DNA of 32,652 bases, taken from Nitrospiria bacterium. GTDB lineage: Bacteria > Nitrospirota > Nitrospiria > JACQBZ01. A program made the translations under genes and the position numbers. How positions within the stretch are numbered: position 1 is the stretch's first letter; each line of letters begins with the position of its first letter. Of this stretch, positions 1-24,030 are shown one piece after another. The stretch lies in contig DATKAN010000021.1 of the NCBI GenBank assembly GCA_035498035.1, positions 1 through 32,652 of the forward strand, given 5' to 3'. A model generated the notes under the pieces. That model had not been told where the DNA came from. It searched no databases and saw only the letters and a program-made list of their open reading frames with translations.

Positions 1-1684
1 TGCCTGAGGCGTCACGGCTAAGCACTCTATAATGGTACGCCGTGGAGGCCTGAAGACCGGTCAGCGATTGGCCGTGGGAAGTCACCAGCGTGCTGTTGAC
101 TGTTGTCGACGATCCATAAGCCGTCGTGGTTCCATATTGAATCTGAGTATCCGAGAGCTCATTCGTGGTCCACGAGATCGCGGCGCCTGAACTGGTGATG
201 TTGCCGGACCCGATGTTGGAGATCACCGGCGGGGTGGTGTCGGGCGCGGCCGGGGTCGTGAAGGTGTTATCGCCGGAGGTCGCCAGATTGGAAGCGGCGT
301 CGGCGCTCTTCACGCGGAAATGGTAGGTGGTGGAGGCCGACAGGCCGGTCAATGCGACGCTGTGGCCGGTGACCATCGTGGAATTCAAGGTCGTCGACGA
401 GCCGTAGGCGGTGGTCGTTCCGTATTCGACCTGGGACGAGGACGCTTCATTCGTCGTCCAGGTAATATTGGCCGAATTGAACTGGATATTGCCGGACGCC
501 ACAATCGAGATCACCGGCGGGGTGGTGTCGGGCGCGGCCGAGGTGGTGAAGGTGTTGTCGCCCGAGGTCGCGAGGTTCGAGGAGGCGTCGGCGCTCTTCA
601 CACGGTAATGGTAGGTGGTGGAAGCGGCCAGACCGGTCAGTGTGACGCTGTGGCTTGTGACCAATGTGGAGTTCAGCGTCGTTGACGATCCATAGGACGT
701 CGTCGTTCCGTATTCCACTTGCGAGGAGGACGCTTCATTCGTCGCCCATGTGATGATTGCGCCCGTGTTTGTAATATTGCTCGCGGTGATCCCTGAGATG
801 ACCGGCGGGGTGGTGTCCGGGGGCGTCGAGGTCGTGAAGGTGCCGTCACCGGAGGTGGCCAGATTGCCGGCGGCGTCCCGGCTCAGGACCCTGTAATGAT
901 ACAGCGTGGAGGCCTGAAGACCGGTCAGCGCTTGGCTGTGCGAAGTCACCTTGGTGCTATTGAGAGTGGTGGATGACCCGTAGGCCGTCGTGGTACCGTA
1001 TTGAACCTGAGTATCCGAGAGTTCATCCGTGGTCCACGCGATCGTCGCGCCGGAGGTGGTGATGTTGCTGGACGCAATTCCCGAAATCACCGGCGGGGTG
1101 GTGTCCGGGGGGGTCAAGGTCGTGAAGGTGCTGTCACTCGAGGTCGCCAGGTTGCCGGCGGCATCCCGGCTCAAGACACGGTAGTGGTAAAGCGTGGTGT
1201 CGAGAAGACCGGTCAGCGCTTGGCTGTGCGAAGTCACCTTGGTGCTATTGAGAGTGGTGGATGACCCATAGGCCGTAGTGATACCGTATTGAACCTGAGT
1301 ATCCGAGGCTTCATTCGTGGTCCAGGAAATCGTCGCGCCGGAAGTGGTGATGCTGCTCGAGGCGATCCCCGAAATAACCGGCGGGGTGGTGTCCGGGGGC
1401 GTCAAGGTCGTGAAGGTGTTGTCGCCGGAGGCGGCCAGGTTGCCGGCGGCATCACGGCTCAAGACACGGTAGTGGTAAAGCGTGGCGGCAAGAAGGCCGG
1501 TCAGGGCCTGGCTGTGGGAAGTCACCTTTGTGCTATTGAGCGTGGTGGACGACCCGTAGGCCGTAGTGATACCGTATTGAACCTGAGTATCCGAAGCTTC
1601 ATTCGTGGTCCAGGTAATCGTTGCGCCGGAACTGGTGATGCTGCCGGCTCCGATGGCCGAAATGACCGGCGGTGTCGTATCGGC
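1..1684 (-). repeat. Tandem 288-bp coding repeats (FN3 modules)
   Basis: The motif ACCGGCGGGG (or a close variant) recurs at 225, 513, 801, 1089, 1377 and 1665, exactly 288 bp (96 codons) apart. Each unit encodes one FN3 module beginning DTTPPVIS. The units near 900-1660 are almost identical at nucleotide level, and those near 230-620 form a second similar pair. This indicates recent duplication or recombination inside the gene. The period is seen directly; the duplication history is inferred. Confidence 0.92.
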
Positions 1685-2017
1685 AAAGGTTTTGCTTCCT
1701 TCGTTCGAGAATCCGCTTTCGTTTCCCGAGCTGTCATACGCCGTAACGGTAAAATAGAAGGTGCCGGTGCCCAACCCGGTCACCGTGTACGTGGTTTGAT
1801 TACCGGCATCAATCGTTGTACTGTATATTCCGGAGGAGGTCCCGTAATAAACCTTGAACCCGGCAAGATCGGTCAGGGGAGAACCGTCCGTATTGGTGGT
1901 CGGTGCGTTCCATGTCAGCGAGGCATCACCGGCCAATGCGGGGGAATGGGACTGGAGGACTAAGAGGACGAAAAAAACGACACTGAATATAAAGCCTTGC
2001 TTCCAAGACGTATGCAT
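1..2017 (-). CDS. Secreted fibronectin type III repeat protein (3' end off window)
   Basis: An open frame runs from ATG at 2017 to the left edge without a stop, giving 672 codons; the C terminus lies outside the window. The N terminus is a signal peptide (hydrophobic core FIFSVVFFVLLVL, probable cleavage after SPALA). Residues ~30-112 form one FN3 domain (GFKVYYGTSSG, FTVTAYDSSGNES). Six further FN3-like modules follow, each opening with DTTPPVIS and containing a WTTNEASDTQVQYG-type strand and a Y-H-Y-R-V core. FN3 arrays of this kind occur in extracellular and surface proteins, often beside an enzyme, cytochrome or anchor domain, which here would lie off the window. The start has GGAGGG 10 nt upstream. 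Expression appears controlled by a sigma-54 promoter and a GEMM riboswitch. Function beyond surface localisation is unknown. Confidence 0.88.
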   Translation of the reverse strand, partial: MHTSWKQGFIFSVVFFVLLVLQSHSPALAGDASLTWNAPTTNTDGSPLTDLAGFKVYYGTSSGIYSTTIDAGNQTTYTVTGLGTGTFYFTVTAYDSSGNESGFSNEGSKTFADTTPPVISAIGAGSITSSGATITWTTNEASDTQVQYGITTAYGSSTTLNSTKVTSHSQALTGLLAATLYHYRVLSRDAAGNLAASGDNTFTTLTPPDTTPPVISGIASSSITTSGATISWTTNEASDTQVQYGITTAYGSSTTLNSTKVTSHSQALTGLLDTTLYHYRVLSRDAAGNLATSSDSTFTTLTPPDTTPPVISGIASSNITTSGATIAWTTDELSDTQVQYGTTTAYGSSTTLNSTKVTSHSQALTGLQASTLYHYRVLSRDAAGNLATSGDGTFTTSTPPDTTPPVISGITASNITNTGAIITWATNEASSSQVEYGTTTSYGSSTTLNSTLVTSHSVTLTGLAASTTYHYRVKSADASSNLATSGDNTFTTSAAPDTTPPVISIVASGNIQFNSANITWTTNEASSSQVEYGTTTAYGSSTTLNSTMVTGHSVALTGLSASTTYHFRVKSADAASNLATSGDNTFTTPAAPDTTPPVISNIGSGNITSSGAAISWTTNELSDTQIQYGTTTAYGSSTTVNSTLVTSHGQSLTGLQASTAYHYRVLSRDASG

Positions 2018-2040
2018 GAATCGGATGCCCTCCAATATAT

Positions 2041-2072
2041 AAAAAAACCGCCAAAAAAATTCCCTTTGGCGG
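2041..2072 (-). terminator. Intrinsic terminator of the riboswitch expression platform
   Basis: On the minus strand CCGCCAAA (2072-2065) pairs perfectly with TTTGGCGG (2055-2048), followed at once by seven T (2047-2041). It sits between the GEMM aptamer and the start codon of the FN3 gene, so it would stop transcription before the gene unless the upstream RNA folds to prevent it. Confidence 0.85.
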
Positions 2073-2103
2073 CTCGGCGGGCATGGCTTGTTTCGGATTT
2101 GGA

Positions 2104-2230
2104 GGTCCGTTCGGGCTGGTAAGCGGCTCGACTGAATTCGCCGAGATCACGCCGAAATCCAGATCCTCGCTTAGCTTTAGCCCCGTTGCTCTGCGTCACA
2201 GGGTTTCCCCTGATTTGCTCTGAGCAAAGG
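2104..2230 (-). ncRNA. GEMM-I riboswitch aptamer (cyclic dinucleotide; A20, cGAMP-type)
   Basis: Read on the minus strand, the leader contains the GEMM-I core in order: CAGAGCAAA (2222-2214), a hairpin CAGGG-GAAA-CCCUG with a GNRA tetraloop, GACGCA (2197-2192), then AGC, and a second helix opening with CUAAAGC like the tetraloop-receptor strand. GGGCU (2183-2179) pairs with AGCCC (2117-2113), and UAAGCG (2173-2168) with CGCUUA (2125-2120). Aligned to the Vibrio Vc2 aptamer, the base equivalent to G20 is A (position 2219) and A47 is kept (2192). A20 marks the GEMM-Ib class that senses 3',3'-cGAMP in Geobacter, although some A20 RNAs also bind c-di-GMP. The P1 helix and 3' boundary are uncertain, and the second helix is longer than in Vc2. 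Confidence 0.72.
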
Positions 2231-8226: not shown

Positions 8227-8288
8227 CCTGAGGTCGTTTGCTGTCCGCGCTTGGTCTAACGGCAGGATCCATTAAGGAGATAAGGGCC

Positions 8289-8801
8289 ATGATGCAGAAT
8301 CCGACAAACCCGGATGACGGGATCGACACCCGTTGGACCCAACCCCTGGACAGGAACTTTTTTGAATATCTTCTTGAACTAGAAGTCCGGAAGGCCACCC
8401 GATATTTGTATTACTTTTCATTGCTGGTGGTCCAGCTGGATCGCCTCAGGAGTCCGGCCCCCGGCCCCGCGGAGGAAGCCGTGCATCGTACCTTGGGATA
8501 TCTCATGCGCGATGAAATTCGGGGGACGGATCTTCTCGGGAAACGGATGGACAATAGTTTTTTCATCGTTCTTCACTACACCGACCTGGAGAATGCCATC
8601 CGGGTGGGACAGCGGATACGCGAGCGCGTGGAGCATTACACCTTTGAAACCGGCACGGAGAATAACCGCCGCACCATCAGCATCGGGGTATCCTGTTTTC
8701 CCACCACCGCCAACGATGTGGCGGGCTTGATTCAAAAGTCGGAACAATTGTTGATGAACGCCCAGGGAAAGGGCGGCAATCTGGTCAGCATGCCGGAATG
8801 A
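8289..8801 (+). CDS. Degenerate GGDEF-domain protein
   Basis: 170 residues. The fold pattern of a diguanylate cyclase runs from ~20 to 168 (FSLLVVQLDRL, LGYLMRDEIRGTDLLGKRMDNSFFIVL, RTISIGVSCFP, LIQKSEQLLMNAQGKGGNLV). The catalytic GG[DE]EF is replaced by KRMDNSF, so cyclase activity is not expected; binding a nucleotide or a partner is more likely. ATG at 8289 is chosen for the AAGGAG at 8274-8279; the frame also extends upstream to 8238. It lies 62 nt after the sigma-54 activator and 13 nt before the polysaccharide export lipoprotein, which suggests a post-translational role in exopolysaccharide control. Confidence 0.85.
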   Translation: MMQNPTNPDDGIDTRWTQPLDRNFFEYLLELEVRKATRYLYYFSLLVVQLDRLRSPAPGPAEEAVHRTLGYLMRDEIRGTDLLGKRMDNSFFIVLHYTDLENAIRVGQRIRERVEHYTFETGTENNRRTISIGVSCFPTTANDVAGLIQKSEQLLMNAQGKGGNLVSMPE

Positions 8802-8814
8802 GGGCGAAGATCGT

Positions 8815-9750
8815 ATGAAATTTTCAAAAACCCAACGCAGAACGCTTCTCATAGTTGCCGCGAGTCTTCTGGCCGTAGCCTGTCGATCGATGCCGTCCCC
8901 GTCGGATTCAGCCTCCAAAAATGACCAGTCCATCACCGACCTTCGGGTGATGGACCTCTCGGATAAAACGGAAATCGTGGTTCAGGGGGAAAAGCCGATC
9001 ACCTACACCTATCTGCTGCTGGAGAATCCGCCGAGGATGGTCGTCAATCTTCTGTCCATGAACCGCGGCTCCTTCACGCAAGCGATCAAGGTGGATAAAG
9101 GGGTGATTCGTGAGATCAACGTCCATGACGGGCAGAATCCTCACTTGGCCGTTCAGTTGGAGGTGCTCCTCAATCAATCCTCAAAGCCGGACATCCGGAC
9201 CCAGAACAACTCCTTGCTGATCGATTTTCCACGGCCCCAGATCGACGGCCAACGGGTGGTGGACGAATACCGCATCGGGCCGGAGGACGTATTGGAGATC
9301 ATGGTCTGGAAGAATGCCGATCTCACGCGGACGGTGACGGTGAGGCCCGACGGGAAAATATCGCTGCCCCTGATCGGCGACGTTCAGGCCAGCGGTCTGA
9401 CCACGGCGGAATTGAAGACGGACGTGACCCGAAAGATGAAGGATTACATCGCCGCCCCGGAGATCTCGATCCTGGTGACCACCATCAACAGTTATTTCTA
9501 TTACATCACCGGGGAGGTCGCCCATCCGGGAAAGTATCCCTTGAAGGAACGGACGACCGTCCTGCAGGCGATTTCCATGGCCGGAGGATTTACGCCGTTT
9601 GCCTCCAAGAACGGGATGTCGCTGTTTCGCAAGGATCCGAACAACTCCGCCGAGGTCAAGTTACGGGTACGCTATGACGACATCATTTCAAGCGAGGATC
9701 CCCGGAAAAATCTCGAGCTCCAATCGGGCGACACAATTGTCGTCCCGTAG
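8815..9750 (+). CDS. AMIN-domain polysaccharide export (Wza/GfcE-type) lipoprotein
   Basis: 311 residues. A lipoprotein signal ends LLAVAC with Cys23 as the lipidation site. Residues ~40-138 (TDLRVMDLSDKTEIVVQGEKP, NPPRMVVNL) look like an AMIN domain, a peptidoglycan- or envelope-targeting domain better known in amidases and the PilQ secretin. Residues ~150-225 are the Poly_export domain (YRIGPEDVLEIMVW, VRPDGKISLPLIGDV). Residues ~226-311 are an SLBB domain (YYITGEVAHPGKYPL, LQAISMAGGFT, SGDTIVVP). It should form the periplasmic/outer-membrane exit for a capsular or exopolysaccharide, working with the Wzc-type protein two genes downstream. It overlaps the next gene by one nucleotide. Confidence 0.9.
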   Translation: MKFSKTQRRTLLIVAASLLAVACRSMPSPSDSASKNDQSITDLRVMDLSDKTEIVVQGEKPITYTYLLLENPPRMVVNLLSMNRGSFTQAIKVDKGVIREINVHDGQNPHLAVQLEVLLNQSSKPDIRTQNNSLLIDFPRPQIDGQRVVDEYRIGPEDVLEIMVWKNADLTRTVTVRPDGKISLPLIGDVQASGLTTAELKTDVTRKMKDYIAAPEISILVTTINSYFYYITGEVAHPGKYPLKERTTVLQAISMAGGFTPFASKNGMSLFRKDPNNSAEVKLRVRYDDIISSEDPRKNLELQSGDTIVVP

Positions 9751-10973
9751 TGAACCAAGGAAACGAGGAAAACCTGAACGGATGCCGTATTCTCACAGCC
9801 ATTGTGGCGCTGGGCCTTTCACTGGCGGTTATTCCCGGCACCGTTTACGGGGGGTGGCAATGGTCTTTGGGATTGGGAGCCGGGACGCGCTACGATACCA
9901 ACGTCCAGATCGCATCCGATGGTCACCCGGATGCGGTATACTCCGTTAATTCACAGGTCGGGATGACTTATCAAGGGTCGAAAATGAATTTGACCGGATC
10001 ATACGGATTGGGTTTTGAGCTGTTTCAAACCTACAAGAATCTCAACCGGGCCTCGCAGAGCCTTTCCATCGATGGAGACCTGAGCCGGATGATGGGGCCC
10101 GTTTTTCCCGATAATTCCACTCTGCACTTTTCGGAAATGATGGTTGACGCGCCCTTCCTTCCCAATTTTCAGTCGGCCGTGGCTCCCAATCCCAGTGTGA
10201 CCACCGGAGGGGTGAGCACGCCGAGGACCAATACCTTTCTGAACTTTTTCAGTATCTCCGAATCCTCCCCGATTACGGCCCGGACCGGTATCCAATTCTC
10301 CTACCAAAACACCTACACCACTTACGACGATCCCGCGCTGGTTGACAGTCTGACGAATGTGTTCGCGATCGGTTTAAGCCATGACCTGAGCCGGGTCGAT
10401 ACGGTGAATGGCAACGTGTCCTACAGCCGCTTCGACCCCCACGGCGGGGGACCATCGTTCACATATATGCTGACGGTGGGGGAGAAGCATATATTTTCGG
10501 AGGTCATGACTGGAAGCGTGAATCTGGGAGCGGGCGCGGCCGTGCTTCCGAGCTCAAATCACCCCGACTTTATCAGTATGGGAAACATGTCCCTGACAAG
10601 GAGTCTGAGCGAAAAGCTTCAATTGAGCGTGATGGGGGGGCGGAATTTCAGCACCAATAACGGCGGGATCGCCAACACGGTCCTTATAACGGATAGCGGG
10701 ACGGTCTCCCTGAGCCGGCAAATGTCGAGGTTTTTAAGCGCGAATGTCGCATTGAATGCGGCCAGGAACTATTCGCTCGGCTCGGCCACGTCCGCCGGTT
10801 TTCATACCGATATCCATTCCCAGAATGTCAATGTTGGGTTGAATTACCAGTTCGCCACTTGGCTGAACGGACATCTTTCCTATAACTACACCCGACAAGA
10901 GGAGGCTGGGTCCACACAGGGCGACCTGATCCAGAATCAATACATCTTCGCCCTTCAGGGGCATTGGTCTTGA
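9750..10973 (+). CDS. Outer-membrane beta-barrel protein of the exopolysaccharide locus
   Basis: 407 residues starting with GTG overlapping the previous stop. A signal peptide is visible (ILTAIVALGLSLAVIPGTVYG), followed by alternating hydrophobic/polar strands throughout (WSLGLGAGTRYDTNVQ, MNLTGSYGLGFELFQTYKN, VNVGLNYQFATWLNGHLSYNY) and a C-terminal strand ending QGHWS. The composition and operon position match the putative beta-barrel proteins found between Wza-like and Wzc-like genes in PEP-CTERM-type exopolysaccharide clusters, where they are thought to help move polymer across the outer membrane. No Shine-Dalgarno precedes the GTG; CTG at residue 9 is an alternative, or translation is coupled to the upstream gene. 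Confidence 0.8.
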   Translation: MNQGNEENLNGCRILTAIVALGLSLAVIPGTVYGGWQWSLGLGAGTRYDTNVQIASDGHPDAVYSVNSQVGMTYQGSKMNLTGSYGLGFELFQTYKNLNRASQSLSIDGDLSRMMGPVFPDNSTLHFSEMMVDAPFLPNFQSAVAPNPSVTTGGVSTPRTNTFLNFFSISESSPITARTGIQFSYQNTYTTYDDPALVDSLTNVFAIGLSHDLSRVDTVNGNVSYSRFDPHGGGPSFTYMLTVGEKHIFSEVMTGSVNLGAGAAVLPSSNHPDFISMGNMSLTRSLSEKLQLSVMGGRNFSTNNGGIANTVLITDSGTVSLSRQMSRFLSANVALNAARNYSLGSATSAGFHTDIHSQNVNVGLNYQFATWLNGHLSYNYTRQEEAGSTQGDLIQNQYIFALQGHWS

Positions 10974-10983
10974 GAGGAATCCG

Positions 10984-13155
10984 ATGTCTTCACAGATGAC
11001 CGGCATGGTATGGCAGGATTATGTGGAGATTTTTTTACGCCGACGCTGGTATGTCATCGTCCCTTTTTTCCTATCCGTGATCGTCAGCGTTGTATTGTGT
11101 TTTGTGTTGCCCAAGACCTATAAATCCACCACGTTGATCACCATCGAGCAGCAGAAGGTTCCGGAAAACTATGTCAAGTCGACCGTTTCAACCGACATTG
11201 ACGAAAGGCTCGGCAATATCGAGGTGCAGGTCACGAGCCGGACCCTGCTGCAGTCGGTCATCGACGAATTCGGACTTTACAAGGGGGAAGCGAAGCGGAT
11301 GACGCCCGACGAGGTGGTGGACCTGGTCCGGAAAAATGTCGAGGTCAAGGTCGAGCGGGGGAAGAAGGACATCGACGCCTTCAGCATATCATATGAGGGG
11401 CCCGATCCCCGGACCGTGATGCAGGTGACGAATAAATTGGCCTCCCTCTTTATCGAGGAGAATCTCAAGGTCCGTGAAGAGTTTGTGGAGGGGACCTCGG
11501 ATTTTCTGGACAACGAGCTGACCGGGATCAAGGCCGACCTCGAAGCCCAGGAAAATAAAATACGTCAGTACAAGCAGCAAAACATGGGGGAGCTTCCCGA
11601 GCAGACCTCGGCCAACCTTCGAACCCTGGACCGGCTCCAACTCGAGCAACAAACGGTCGGCGAGGCCCTGTCAAGGGCCAAGGAACGCCGGGCCTTTTTA
11701 CTGGAGAGCAACTCAAAACGGGTCTTGTCCTCCCAAGACCATGACGCGGGGGATCGCTTGGAGGCCTTGACCCCGGCCCAGAGGTTGGTCCGGTTGAAAA
11801 GCGAACTGGCGGACCTCCAAACGCGGTTCACGGACAAATATCCGGATGTGGTTCGCGTCAAAGGCGAGATCGCGGAACTGGAGGCGGGTCTCAAGGCCAG
11901 CGCTTCCGAGGCCAAGGATTCCAATTCCGGAAAGTCAAAGGAAGGGGGACAGAAGGACGCAACAACCGAGGCCGTTGCCGCTCCCGCGGACGACTTTCAG
12001 GGGGAATATAATCAAACCCTTCTCGATATCCGCCGTCTTGAAGACCGACAAAAACAGATCGCGGCGCAGATGAAGGCCTACGAGGCCCGCGTGGAACATG
12101 CCCCGCTCCGGGAACAGCAGATGCTGGCCTTGATGCGGGATTATGAGAGCACCAAGGCGCATTATCAATCCCTCCTGGACAAAAAACTCAACGCACGCAT
12201 TTCGGAAAATCTTGAAAAGCGGCAGAAGGGGGAACAATTCCGCATCCTCGATCCGGCCACGCTGCCGACAAAGCCCTACAAGCCGGATCTGTTCCGGGTG
12301 GTCCTCATGGGTCTCCTGGTGGGCCTTTCCTCCGGCGGCGGGGCCGCCTTCCTCCGTGAGGTGATGGATAATTCCTTCAAAAGGGCCGAGGAAGTGGAGA
12401 CCGTTCTCGGTCTCAACGTGTTGGCCTCCATTCCGAACATCGGCGAGACCAGCGTCCGGCCGAGAACACCCTCGGGGATTGCGGAAAAATTGGATCCCAC
12501 GCTGGTCACGATCACGGAGCCCGTTTCGTTGGCGGCCGAGCAGTATCGGGTCGTGTGCGCCAAGCTCAATAAAATCTCCAAGGATCTGGGTTCCCGCGTG
12601 ATCGCGGTGATGAGCTCGGTCAAGAATGAGGGGAAGACCCTGACCTCCATCAACCTGTCCGCCGCGCTGGCCAAGGACTTCAACCGCCGTGTCCTGTTGA
12701 TCGAGGCCGATCTCAAGAACCCCTCGCTGTCCCGGCTTCTGGGACATCCGATGAACGGCGGTCTCGTGAATCTGCTGTCGCTCCAGACCGATCTGGACCA
12801 TGTCGGCCTGACCTATTTTGACGGGCGTCTTACGGTCCTGCCGGCCGGAAAGAGCATGGGGGACGATCTTCGTCTTCTCGGTTCGGAGCAGATCCGGGAG
12901 TTTCTGGAACAGGCGAAGGGCCGTTATGATTTTATTGTCCTGGATATTCCTCCGATTCTTCCGTTGGCCGACGCCAACGTGATTACCGGGCTGGCCGATG
13001 CGATGATCATGGTCATCTGGGCCGAACACACCCCGCAACGTCTGGTGCAGCGCGCGATCGCCGATCTGGACAGCCGCAAGATTCTCGGCGTCGTATTAAA
13101 CGACGTCAAATCGTATATGTCGCATTACTATTATTATCATCACCAAAAAAAATAG
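10984..13155 (+). CDS. Wzc/ExoP-type polysaccharide co-polymerase with BY-kinase domain
   Basis: 723 residues. The Wzz domain has TM1 at ~22-42, a long periplasmic region with coiled coils (~165-245 and ~340-415), the proline-rich PATLPTKPYKPD (424-435) and TM2 (~437-457). The cytoplasmic bacterial tyrosine kinase domain follows: Walker A VKNEGKT (546-552), Walker A' LLIEADLK (571-578) and Walker B IVLDIPP (651-657). A tyrosine cluster near the C terminus (Y711, Y715-718) is the expected autophosphorylation tail. The first Asp of Walker A' is Glu here, which is unusual. The protein controls chain length and export through cycles of tail phosphorylation. No separate tyrosine phosphatase is seen nearby. 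Confidence 0.95.
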   Translation: MSSQMTGMVWQDYVEIFLRRRWYVIVPFFLSVIVSVVLCFVLPKTYKSTTLITIEQQKVPENYVKSTVSTDIDERLGNIEVQVTSRTLLQSVIDEFGLYKGEAKRMTPDEVVDLVRKNVEVKVERGKKDIDAFSISYEGPDPRTVMQVTNKLASLFIEENLKVREEFVEGTSDFLDNELTGIKADLEAQENKIRQYKQQNMGELPEQTSANLRTLDRLQLEQQTVGEALSRAKERRAFLLESNSKRVLSSQDHDAGDRLEALTPAQRLVRLKSELADLQTRFTDKYPDVVRVKGEIAELEAGLKASASEAKDSNSGKSKEGGQKDATTEAVAAPADDFQGEYNQTLLDIRRLEDRQKQIAAQMKAYEARVEHAPLREQQMLALMRDYESTKAHYQSLLDKKLNARISENLEKRQKGEQFRILDPATLPTKPYKPDLFRVVLMGLLVGLSSGGGAAFLREVMDNSFKRAEEVETVLGLNVLASIPNIGETSVRPRTPSGIAEKLDPTLVTITEPVSLAAEQYRVVCAKLNKISKDLGSRVIAVMSSVKNEGKTLTSINLSAALAKDFNRRVLLIEADLKNPSLSRLLGHPMNGGLVNLLSLQTDLDHVGLTYFDGRLTVLPAGKSMGDDLRLLGSEQIREFLEQAKGRYDFIVLDIPPILPLADANVITGLADAMIMVIWAEHTPQRLVQRAIADLDSRKILGVVLNDVKSYMSHYYYYHHQKK

Positions 13156-13177
13156 GGCGTTAAAACGTTCGTGAACC

Positions 13178-14569
13178 ATGTTGCTGTCGAGTCCAGGAAA
13201 TTTGATCCGCCGCGTCGGATTCATCTTAATCGAGAATCTGCTGCTCTGCGCCAGCGTGCTGATCGCGGTATCGCTTCGCTTCTTCCTCAATGAAGTCTCC
13301 CCCCTCTCGAACGGACTGGTCTATCTGAAAGCGTTCGTGATCGCCTCGATCTGTCAGGTCAGTTTCTATTACAACGACCTTTATGTCATTCGACTGTTCC
13401 ACCAGCGCCGCGAGTGGACGATCAAGTTCGTTCAATCGCTGGCCGCGGCCGCGATCCTCTTATCCGCGGTCTATTATCTTTTTCCGTCCCTGATCATCGG
13501 TCGGGGGATCTTCCTGATCACCCTGGTCCTGCTGCCGTTGGCCGTGATCGGATGGCGGTTCTCCTACGACCGGCTCAGCCGATTCAGCGGGATGAGGGAC
13601 CGGGTCGTCATTCTGGGGTCCGGCTCGCTGGCCCGGAAGATCGGGGAGGAGGTCCTTCACAATCATCGGGACGCCTACGATATCATTGGTTTTGTGGACG
13701 AGGACCCGAGGCGGGTGGGGGAGAGCGTGGTCAATCCGAAGATCATCGGCGATTATACCGCGCTCTCGGCCATCGTATCCCAGCAGAGCATCGACCGGGT
13801 CATCGTGGCCTTGCCGGACCGGCGGGGCAAGCTGCCCGTGAACATGCTGCTGGATTGCAAATTTCAGGGGACGGGGGTTGAAGACGGCGTCAACTTCTAC
13901 GAACGGCTGGTCGGAAAGATCCTCGTCGAGAACCTGAAACCCAGCTGGTTTATTTTTTCATCCGGGTTTCAACAATACCGGCTGGCCCGCGTCACCAAGC
14001 GCGTTTTGGACCTGGTCCTGGCCTCCGCGGCCCTCCTGGTCAGCCTGCCTCTGTTCCCCTTCATCGCGGTCCTGATCCGCCTGGATTCCCCCGGTCCCGC
14101 CTTCTTCCGTCAGGAGCGGGTGGGGGAGGGGGAAAGGGTGTTCACCTTGTTGAAGTTCCGTTCGATGCGGGTGGATGCGGAGGCGGCGACCGGGCCCAAG
14201 TGGGCCCAGGATCAGGACGATCGAAGGACGGCCGTGGGGAGGTTCCTTCGGAAGTCGAGGTTGGACGAGCTGCCCCAGCTCATCAACGTTTTGAAGGGCG
14301 ATATGAGCTTTGTCGGGCCCCGTCCGGAACGGCCGTTTTTTGTCGCGGTATTGCTGAAGGAAATTCCCTACTATTCCGCCCGTCACGCGGTGAAGCCGGG
14401 AATCACCGGCTGGGCCCAGATCCGATACAGTTACGGGGCCTCGAAGGAAGACGCCTTGGAAAAACTTCAATACGATCTTTACTACATCAAGAACCTTTCG
14501 ATCTGGCTGGATCTGACCATTCTCTTTGAAACGATCAAGGTGGTCCTGCTGGGTCGGGGCGCCCGCTGA
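13178..14569 (+). CDS. Polyprenyl-phosphate sugar-1-phosphate transferase (WcaJ/EpsB type)
   Basis: 463 residues. Four N-terminal membrane helices lie within ~12-126, followed by a Rossmann-like CoA-binding_3 domain (VVILGSGSLARKIGEEVL at ~144). The C-terminal bacterial sugar transferase domain starts at KRVLDLVLASAALL (274), with a membrane segment, the LLKFRSMRVDAE motif (325-335), SRLDELPQLINVLKGDMSFVGPRPE (split across 360-384) and PGITGWAQ. This enzyme loads the first sugar phosphate onto undecaprenyl phosphate at the inner membrane, beginning repeat-unit synthesis. It lies 22 nt after the Wzc gene and is the last gene of the operon. Its sequence style matches the PEP-CTERM-associated subgroup. 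Which sugar is used cannot be read. Confidence 0.94.
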   Translation: MLLSSPGNLIRRVGFILIENLLLCASVLIAVSLRFFLNEVSPLSNGLVYLKAFVIASICQVSFYYNDLYVIRLFHQRREWTIKFVQSLAAAAILLSAVYYLFPSLIIGRGIFLITLVLLPLAVIGWRFSYDRLSRFSGMRDRVVILGSGSLARKIGEEVLHNHRDAYDIIGFVDEDPRRVGESVVNPKIIGDYTALSAIVSQQSIDRVIVALPDRRGKLPVNMLLDCKFQGTGVEDGVNFYERLVGKILVENLKPSWFIFSSGFQQYRLARVTKRVLDLVLASAALLVSLPLFPFIAVLIRLDSPGPAFFRQERVGEGERVFTLLKFRSMRVDAEAATGPKWAQDQDDRRTAVGRFLRKSRLDELPQLINVLKGDMSFVGPRPERPFFVAVLLKEIPYYSARHAVKPGITGWAQIRYSYGASKEDALEKLQYDLYYIKNLSIWLDLTILFETIKVVLLGRGAR

Positions 14570-22273: not shown

Positions 22274-23584
22274 TTATTTCAACCCGTAGGCCTTCTGAAC
22301 CACCTGAATCGGGTGGACCGACTTCTTCCCGGTGCTTTGGGTGAGCGCGATTCCGGAAAGGGGACAGTCCGAAACGGCCACGTCCGGCTCCGCATTCTCC
22401 ACGGCCGCGAAGGCCTTTCGTCCGACCTTGAGCGAGAGGTCGTAGAATTCCTTTTTGACCCCGAACGTGCCGTCATGCCCGGAGCACCGTTCGATCACTT
22501 CGACGGTGGCTCCGGGAATCAACTTCATCAGGTCGCGCGACTTCAACCCGATGTTCTGATCCCTCAGATGGCAGGGGACCTGGTAGGCGATCTTCCCGGG
22601 ACTGGACACGAAATCCTTCGCGAGCTTTCCCATCCCTTCGAGTTTCATGAGGTATTCGCAGAGGTCGTACGTGTTGGCCGCGACCTTTCGCGCCTCCTCG
22701 GTCGGAACGAGGTCCGGATATTCCTTCTTCAGCATCAGGCTGCAGGTCGGCATCGGCGATACGATCTTGTAGCCCCCGTCCACCGCGGCCGCGAGACGCT
22801 TCAAATTCGACCGGGCTTTCCGGCGAACCGCGTCCAGATCCCCGATGTCGAAATAGGGCATTCCGCAGCATTCCTGTTCAGGACAGATCACCTCGACGCC
22901 GTTTTTCTCGAGGACCTGAATCGCGGCCTTGCCGATCTCGGGATCGTGGCGGTTGACGTAGCAGGTGTAGAACAAGGCAATCTTCTCGGTTGTGGGGGCA
23001 GGTCCCCGTGCCTGCCCTATGTCAGTGCGGCCACGGAGAGCCGCCCCTACGGTAGATCTACCTGATTTCCGAATTTGTCCGAACCACGATGCAAACGACC
23101 GCCACCGGAAGTCCGGGAACAGCCGCTCCCGGTGAATGCCCGTCACGCCCTCCAGCATCCGGCGGAAGAACGGCCGGCGGAGGGCCCAATTGGCCAGGGG
23201 CGCGATCATCCCGCCCAAGCGTCCCACGAAATCCACGTTCACCAAAAGACGGTCCCTAAATCCGGCCGGCCGCCGTTTCGCCATCAGATGTTTTCCCCAA
23301 AGCATCAGCCGCGGAAAATCCAGGTCGTATGGGTGCGGCGGACAATAGGGACAGTGGTTGAAACAAAGCTTGCAGTAATAACAGAGATCCACCACCCGAT
23401 CGTGAAGCGGCGCGTCAAGCGCGGCGACCTCGCCGTCCTTGTCGTCGATGCCGCGGAACAGGACATCAAAGGACGGACAGAGGTTAAAACACCTCCGGCA
23501 TCCGTTGCAGATCTCGTAGACCCGCAAGGTTTCGGCCCGGAGGGCTTCCGGTTCTTTGAATCGGGGGGAGTCGAAGGCGATCAT
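22274..23584 (-). CDS. Fe-S/CCG-domain oxidoreductase (GlpC/HdrD-like)
   Basis: 436 residues from ATG 23584, 17 nt after the rubrerythrin stop. Two 4Fe-4S motifs lie at 26-36 ([11 protein letters not shown]) and 68-81 ([14 protein letters not shown]). Two CCG domains follow: the first from CYVNRHDP (~208) with [12 protein letters not shown], the second with CHLRDQ and [10 protein letters not shown]. This is the electron-transfer architecture of GlpC, glycolate oxidase iron-sulfur and HdrD subunits. In the PerR operon it probably passes electrons to rubrerythrin. Residues ~177-199 ([19 protein letters not shown]) are encoded by an inserted palindromic repeat in the linker between the Fe-S and CCG parts; the frame remains open. 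Confidence 0.92.
22992..23050. mobile_element. Double-hairpin palindromic repeat inserted in a coding region
   Basis: The element starts GTGGGGGCAGG (22992) and its other end is the near complement of this (23050): 18 of 24 terminal bases match as inverted repeats. Inside are two hairpins, GGCAGG/CCTGCC and GCGGC/GCCGC, both with a similar loop containing CCGTG. This layout is that of REP/MITE-like dispersed repeats. It adds ~20 codons in frame to the Fe-S protein. No transposase is present. Mobility is inferred from structure only. Confidence 0.7.
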
Positions 23585-23601
23585 CCCGTTTCCCCGGCGA
23601 A

Positions 23602-24030
23602 TTACTTCTTGATGCTGTCCAGGGCCTTGGTAAATCGTCCCGCATGGGACTTTTCGGCCTTGGCCAGCGTCTCGAACCATTCCGAGATCTCTTCGAACCC
23701 TTCTTCGCGGGCGGTCTTGGCGAATCCGGGATACATCTGGGTGTACTCGTAGGTTTCGCCTTCGATCGCGGACTTCAGATTGGCCGCGGTGTCGCCGACG
23801 GCCACGCCCGTGACCGGGTCGCCGACCTCGGCCAGGTAATCAAAATGTCCGAAGGCATGCCCGGTCTCGCCCTCGGCCGTGTCCCGGAACACGCCGGCGA
23901 TGTCGGGTTGTCCCTCGATGTCGGCGCGACGGGCAAAATAAAGATAGCGTCGGTTGGCCTGGGATTCTCCGGCGAATCCATCCTTTAGATTTTGCCAGGT
24001 CTTCGATCCTTTCAAGGCTTTCTTGGCCAT
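23602..24030 (-). CDS. rbr: Rubrerythrin (erythrin domain only, no rubredoxin)
   Basis: 142 residues from ATG 24030, with AGGAGG upstream. The ferritin-like di-iron fold is clear: [20 protein letters not shown] (31-50), [15 protein letters not shown] (63-77), [11 protein letters not shown] (102-112) and [11 protein letters not shown] (126-136), providing the Glu and ExxH ligands. The C-terminal rubredoxin domain of classical rubrerythrin is missing, so electrons must come from another protein; the Fe-S protein encoded next is the natural candidate. The protein reduces hydrogen peroxide in the cytoplasm. It begins 5 nt after the PerR stop codon. Confidence 0.95.

Follow-up and report, generated by a model that had tools for sequence, protein, structure and literature searches.

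An FN3 surface-protein gene in a Nitrospirota genome is preceded by a leader that is, with near certainty, a real GEMM-I riboswitch aptamer, and the base at position 20 is certainly A. The leader probably acts as a GEMM-Ib (A20) transcriptional ON riboswitch for 3',3'-cGAMP, with the dinucleotide predicted to be supplied by a GacA-like enzyme encoded in the same genome. This appears to be a known kind of riboswitch in a phylum without an earlier report; a literature search, with most subscription journals outside its coverage, returned no paper on this system in Nitrospirae or Nitrospirota.

Host genome and downstream gene

The window, by which we mean the whole stretch of 32,652 nucleotides analyzed here, is an entire contig of a 2.67 Mb genome that is 99% complete. 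The protein encoded at window positions 22274-23680 has its nearest named relatives, at 74-80% identity, in three Nitrospirae groundwater MAGs, and the host is therefore taken as a member of the Nitrospirota. The initial annotation had proposed that cGAMP signaling would extend to another lineage if the organism were not a Geobacter relative, and these identities indicate that it is not one. The ORF downstream of the leader has Pfam matches to fn3 (PF00041, 4.3e-35) and the FN3-like Pur_ac_phosph_N (2.9e-49), in six stretches each, in agreement with the assignment of the riboswitch to an FN3 gene; NCBIfam gave this protein no specific name, only repeat similarity far under the cut-off. Elsewhere in the window, the plus strand at 8815-14569 carries a run of exopolysaccharide-type genes, judged from their ORF sequences as polysaccharide export-like, chain-length/tyrosine-kinase-like and sugar transferase.

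An A20 aptamer of the GEMM-I family

In an Rfam scan of the whole window, RF01051 (c-di-GMP-I, GEMM-I) was the sole family above its gathering score, matching 2229-2065 on the minus strand over the full-length model (1-87) with 49.6 bits (E = 5.5e-7) against a gathering cut-off of 35 bits. This covariance-model search had been suggested in the initial annotation, and the sequence shows the core elements named there: CAGAGCAAA at 2222-2214, the GAAA-capped hairpin at 2212-2199, GACGCA at 2197-2192 and CUAAAGC at 2180-2174. The features of the leader and its gene, all on the minus strand and in window coordinates, are as follows.

2063..2230 (-), GEMM-I aptamer from P1 5' strand to P1 3' strand (RF01051 covers 2065-2229; P1 added by hand from pair counts in 27 relatives)
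2225..2230 (-), P1 5' strand CCUUUG, pairing with 2063-2068
2219..2224 (-), J1/2 CUCAGA, ending in A20 (base-by-base reading)
2219 (-), A20 specificity base (RF01051 alignment; A in all 34 true copies of the subclass described below)
2214..2228 (-), possible competing hairpin UUUGCUCAGAGCAAA (folds at -3.8 kcal/mol; no support from covariation)
2199..2212 (-), P2 hairpin with GAAA tetraloop (RF01051; four P2 pairs changed on both sides in relatives)
2180..2189 (-), P3 5' strand, pairing with 2072-2082
2090..2173 (-), 84-nt P3 insertion between the aptamer halves (RF01051 alignment; shorter in orthologue L083)
2072..2082 (-), P3 3' strand (RF01051 and pair counts)
2063..2068 (-), P1 3' strand CAAAGG, common to the terminator 5' arm (pair counts, terminator overlap)
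2041..2072 (-), intrinsic terminator, the expression platform (stem CCGCCAAAGG/UUUUUGGCGG, U7; layout alike in nearly all relatives)
2028..2033 (-), Shine-Dalgarno-like GGAGGG (sequence)
2..2017 (-), FN3-repeat secreted/surface protein gene, ATG at 2017, running off the contig end (ORF and Pfam)

Position 20 is G in c-di-GMP binders and A in cGAMP binders. Alignment to RF01051 equates G20 of Vc2 with A2219, as had been read by eye, and the remaining ligand-contact equivalents are kept (A18 as A2221, A47 as A2192, C92 as C2069). Within the core, G2218 pairs with C2193 and C2217 with G2194, and J2/3 is A2192. The aptamer resembles RF01051 as represented by Vc2 in secondary structure, which is identical, and scores above the curated threshold, but differs from it at the ligand-selecting position, which is A here and G in Vc2.

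The aptamer is interrupted by the P3 insertion, on which the initial annotation was silent and which puts the 3' half at 2063-2089. In a same-genus orthologue (L083) the insertion occupies this P3 site too but is shorter. With a shorter placement at 2119-2229 the RF01051 score falls to 36.2 bits, and P2 contains one U-U mismatch. We considered a second aptamer within the insertion and rejected it, given the low score of the 2119-2229 placement and an orthologue that lacks most of the insertion.

Expression platform

The aptamer is followed on the minus strand (2072-2041) by the terminator that had been claimed, CCGCCAAAGG-GAAUU-UUUUUGGCGG and U7, with a folding energy of -12.8 kcal/mol. Bases of the P1 3' strand double as part of the terminator 5' arm, so P1 and the terminator are mutually exclusive, and the position of this strand within the arm gives a ligand-ON layout. 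The strand-sharing recurs across the copies examined, and almost every one of them has a U-run behind the terminator. In free folding, P1 forms in a transcript ending at 2061 and the terminator in the whole leader, whose free MFE structure contains a UUGCUC/GAGCAA pairing. We infer terminator-type ON control, its sign taken from this anatomy. A promoter search detected no sigma-70-like promoter upstream of the riboswitch.

A candidate cGAMP synthase in the same genome

The genome has 25 GGDEF matches, two of which carry Ser at the PleD D344 position: L017 (GAF-GGDEF) and L027 (FHA-GGDEF). A search for a Hypr-type GGDEF, also proposed at the outset, led to L017 (G000:C58), which is GacA-like by sequence. 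In the PDB it matches 6D9M best, the Hypr GGDEF domain from GacA of G. metallireducens, with 168 bits against 127 for the runner-up, and it is nearest to GacA among the GGDEFs of the genome, at 49% identity. L017 reads FKHVNDVHGHLMGS, with the Ser of the Ser/Thr test for the PleD D344 position at 348; it has Phe at the cross-dimer position of GmGacA Tyr304, where canonical enzymes carry Arg, and its motif is GGDEF, not GGEEF. These residues match the Hypr specificity determinants described previously (Ser, non-Arg at Tyr304, GGDEF; PMC6456294). Like GacA (GSU1658/Gmet_1914, 6D9M), L017 also has an RxxD I-site; unlike GacA, it is a Nitrospirota GAF-GGDEF without the receiver domain, and its product is a prediction. 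We infer that L017 is a GacA-like Hypr GGDEF and a putative cGAMP synthase.

A tree of 57 GGDEF domains unites 23 Hypr-type proteins of Nitrospirota in one clade (support 100/98) adjoining GacA (90/67), and together they stand apart from the canonical GGDEFs of the genome. Eight other Ser-type domains make up a second group, which attaches to the Hypr/GacA group (89/87). This second group, with Asp at the Tyr304 position, includes L175, L176, L177, L168, L170 and others from families f17 and f18. The other Ser-type protein of the host, L027 (1042-1992, plus strand, G000:C38), is placed elsewhere in the tree, on a long branch; it combines a specificity-position Ser (LKGVNEKHGHLAGS) with a GGDEF motif, and in the PDB it is closest to the FHA-GGDEF 6hbz. 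The window itself encodes a GGDEF-like protein (8238-8801, plus strand) whose signature is degenerate, MDNSF standing in place of GGDEF, and it is likely inactive.

The A20 subclass in Nitrospirota and its genes

A search for further copies, again suggested initially, recovered five GEMM-I matches in the host genome, each of them A20; a conserved subclass (CUUUGnUCAGAGCAAA...GACGCA) accounts for four, and the fifth is of another subtype. We defined the subclass by a CUUUGnUCAGAGCAAA start followed by GACGCA(G)AGC and searched 396 Nitrospirota genomes with A or G permitted at position 20. The pattern yielded 34 true copies in 22 of the 396 genomes, spanning nine families, and every copy has A20. 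Three further matches in family f2 (G197, G218, G281) were discarded as chance, having G20 and, by eye, no P2 hairpin between the motifs.

In an alignment of 27 copies, P1, P2 and P3 show 97.1% standard pairs and 58 two-sided changes, versus a shuffled mean of 16.1; the structure was drawn partly from these same sequences, so slid controls are biased towards it, and for some pairs of P1 the changes are one-sided. The terminator in relatives is 97.8% paired, with four two-sided changes. The competing hairpin UUUGCUCAGAGCAAA, which the initial annotation thought could mask the ligand site, can form, but covariation lends it no support: its pairing is not maintained across the subclass, and we do not retain it as a conserved masking element.

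The genes behind the A20 copies of the host include a PD40 protein that also carries a domain of the hydrazine synthase alpha middle type (PF18582) and three CxxCH motifs (L178:378-2858, plus strand, G000:C23), a di-haem DHOR oxidoreductase, and an operon for two cytochromes, of 14 and 24 haems, a protein whose C-terminus is barrel-like and a membrane protein, the last two assigned by eye and without a Pfam name. The fifth copy, of the other subtype, lies upstream of a sigma-54 activator-like ORF. FN3 proteins follow subclass copies in many relatives, from at least four families; in G089 a copy precedes a 38-haem cytochrome and a porin-like protein, and in G063 one precedes PilM and PilN. In Geobacter, multihaem cytochromes of the outer surface and genes within pilMNOP are among the GEMM-Ib targets (PMC6456294). 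The Nitrospirota A20 targets resemble this cGAMP regulon, a likeness meant at the level of gene type and not of orthology.

Proposed mechanism and alternatives

As the leader emerges, the aptamer would enclose the ligand, its adenine opposite A2219 and its guanine opposite C2069. Bound ligand would stabilize P1 (CCUUUG/CAAAGG), sequestering part of the terminator 5' arm, and with that arm held by P1 polymerase would continue into the FN3 surface-protein gene. When ligand is absent, CCGCCAAAGG would pair with UUUUUGGCGG and transcription would end. The cGAMP would come from L017, and the same signal would turn on other envelope genes as well as the multihaem-cytochrome operons. The sequences show the aptamer family, A20, the exclusive P1 and terminator, an enzyme of Hypr type and the shared target types; the identity of the ligand, the ON sign and the enzyme product are the putative parts of this scheme.

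The scheme has close counterparts in the Geobacter GEMM-Ib/c-AMP-GMP riboswitches (Gmet_0970, the GSU1761 pgcA leader, 4YAZ), with which it shares the GEMM-I fold, A20, the C92 and A47 equivalents, the terminator-type ON layout, and multihaem cytochromes and pilMNOP among the targets. An A20G change switches Gmet_0970 to c-di-GMP (PMC6456294). In contrast to the Geobacter riboswitches, the Nitrospirota copies have J1/2 nUCAGA, with GACGCAGAGC in place of GACGCAAAGC; relative to the 4YAZ riboswitch, two J1/2 contacts differ, A9 and A11 there being C here (our own mapping from PMC6274999). The putative cGAMP binder described here also differs in its Nitrospirota host, frequent FN3 surface-protein targets and variable P3 insertions.

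An alternative that we consider unlikely, while giving it real weight, is that the aptamer in practice senses c-di-GMP or both dinucleotides, A20 being a tolerated variant. A natural Desulfobacca A-variant gained c-AMP-GMP affinity with perhaps only a slight loss for c-di-GMP (PMC9481103), and the many canonical GGDEF domains in the host genome mean that c-di-GMP is probably also present. However, A20 is invariant in the subclass even though G20 copies are present in some of the same genomes, and nearly all subclass genomes carry the enzyme motif. The Hypr motif FKxxNDxxGHxxGS occurs in 157 of the 396 Nitrospirota genomes (101 of 169 genera) and in 21 of the 22 genomes with the A20 subclass, the exception, G088, being 77% complete. 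For this association the hypergeometric P rises from 2e-8 at genome level to 0.004 for genera and a non-significant 0.16 for families (the counts for the two higher levels were made by hand), a weakening which indicates that shared ancestry accounts for part of it. Conversely, in family f2, provisionally labeled "Nitrospira-like", the Hypr motif is absent among 58 relatives, with a TCN-coded form likewise at 0 among 58 relatives, and all seven aptamers retrieved from this family are G20.

Two other readings concern the function of the leader and the direction of control. The low-scoring shorter placement and the P2 mismatch could indicate a decayed, non-functional aptamer, interrupted by its insertion, ahead of a constitutive terminator; this is highly improbable, as the core, P1 and terminator are kept in the same-genus orthologue and big P3 insertions recur beside intact cores (for example L120, L123 and L179). 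There is slightly more room, if still very little, for an OFF switch in which the UUUGCUCAGAGCAAA hairpin or the UUGCUC/GAGCAA pairing masks the site and ligand promotes termination. Both pairings can form, and the latter is that of the free leader MFE, but P1 and the terminator draw on the same strand in the copies examined, a P1-closed transcript is unable to form the stem, and complementarity in the 5' hairpin is lost in several copies (UUUGAUC, UUUGUUC, GCAGUGC). Moreover, expression of Geobacter GEMM-Ib targets drops on gacA deletion (PMC6456294), as ON control would predict.

Distribution and significance

The occurrence of an A20 riboswitch and the matching enzyme type in one Nitrospirota genome indicates that the cGAMP route probably reaches well beyond the bacteria of its discovery. 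On a wider view, to which we give even chances on the sequence comparisons above, signaling by Hypr GGDEF enzymes and A20 GEMM-I riboswitches would be an old, widespread trait of the Nitrospirota, governing EET-type multihaem-cytochrome operons, type IV pilus genes and FN3 surface proteins, with some members adding serial c-di-GMP aptamers as a two-signal gate. In the study of the GacA structure, an origin of Hypr GGDEFs in ancestral Deltaproteobacteria was proposed, and whether the cGAMP lifestyle paradigm reaches further was left undecided (PMC6456294). If the wider view is true, the system is not restricted to Deltaproteobacteria and may have originated elsewhere. A receptor, a GacA-like enzyme and similar targets across many Nitrospirota families make questions of origin and spread directly testable, and they provide a way into the regulation of multihaem-cytochrome operons in a mostly uncultured phylum.

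Other GEMM-I arrangements

In some relatives G20 and A20 GEMM-I aptamers lie in series before one FN3 gene (L121:301-555, G023:C16; L089:464-1487, G008:C48; L123, G023:C20). L121 and L089 have a terminator-like hairpin and U-run of their own behind each aptamer, possibly forming a two-signal gate, and L089 has a possible promoter between the two aptamers. The tandem c-di-GMP/c-AMP-GMP cluster of Desulfobacca acetoxidans (PMC9481103) similarly holds G20 and A20 GEMM-I aptamers in one region, but there AdoCbl riboswitches are added, whereas the Nitrospirota aptamers stand directly in series before a single FN3 gene. Double or triple tandem A20 riboswitches precede FN3 genes in L093 (G008:C46), L086 (G005:C29), L120 (G023:C17) and L127 (G042:C2). 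A GEMM-I match of 69.7 bits upstream of a lipoprotein (L036, G002:C37:64744-64834) has C at position 20. Finally, a recurrent lipoprotein family, with an N-terminal region and then ...LPTEISAVP..., is found mostly behind G20 GEMM-I copies, several of them among L031-L059 and L101-L134.
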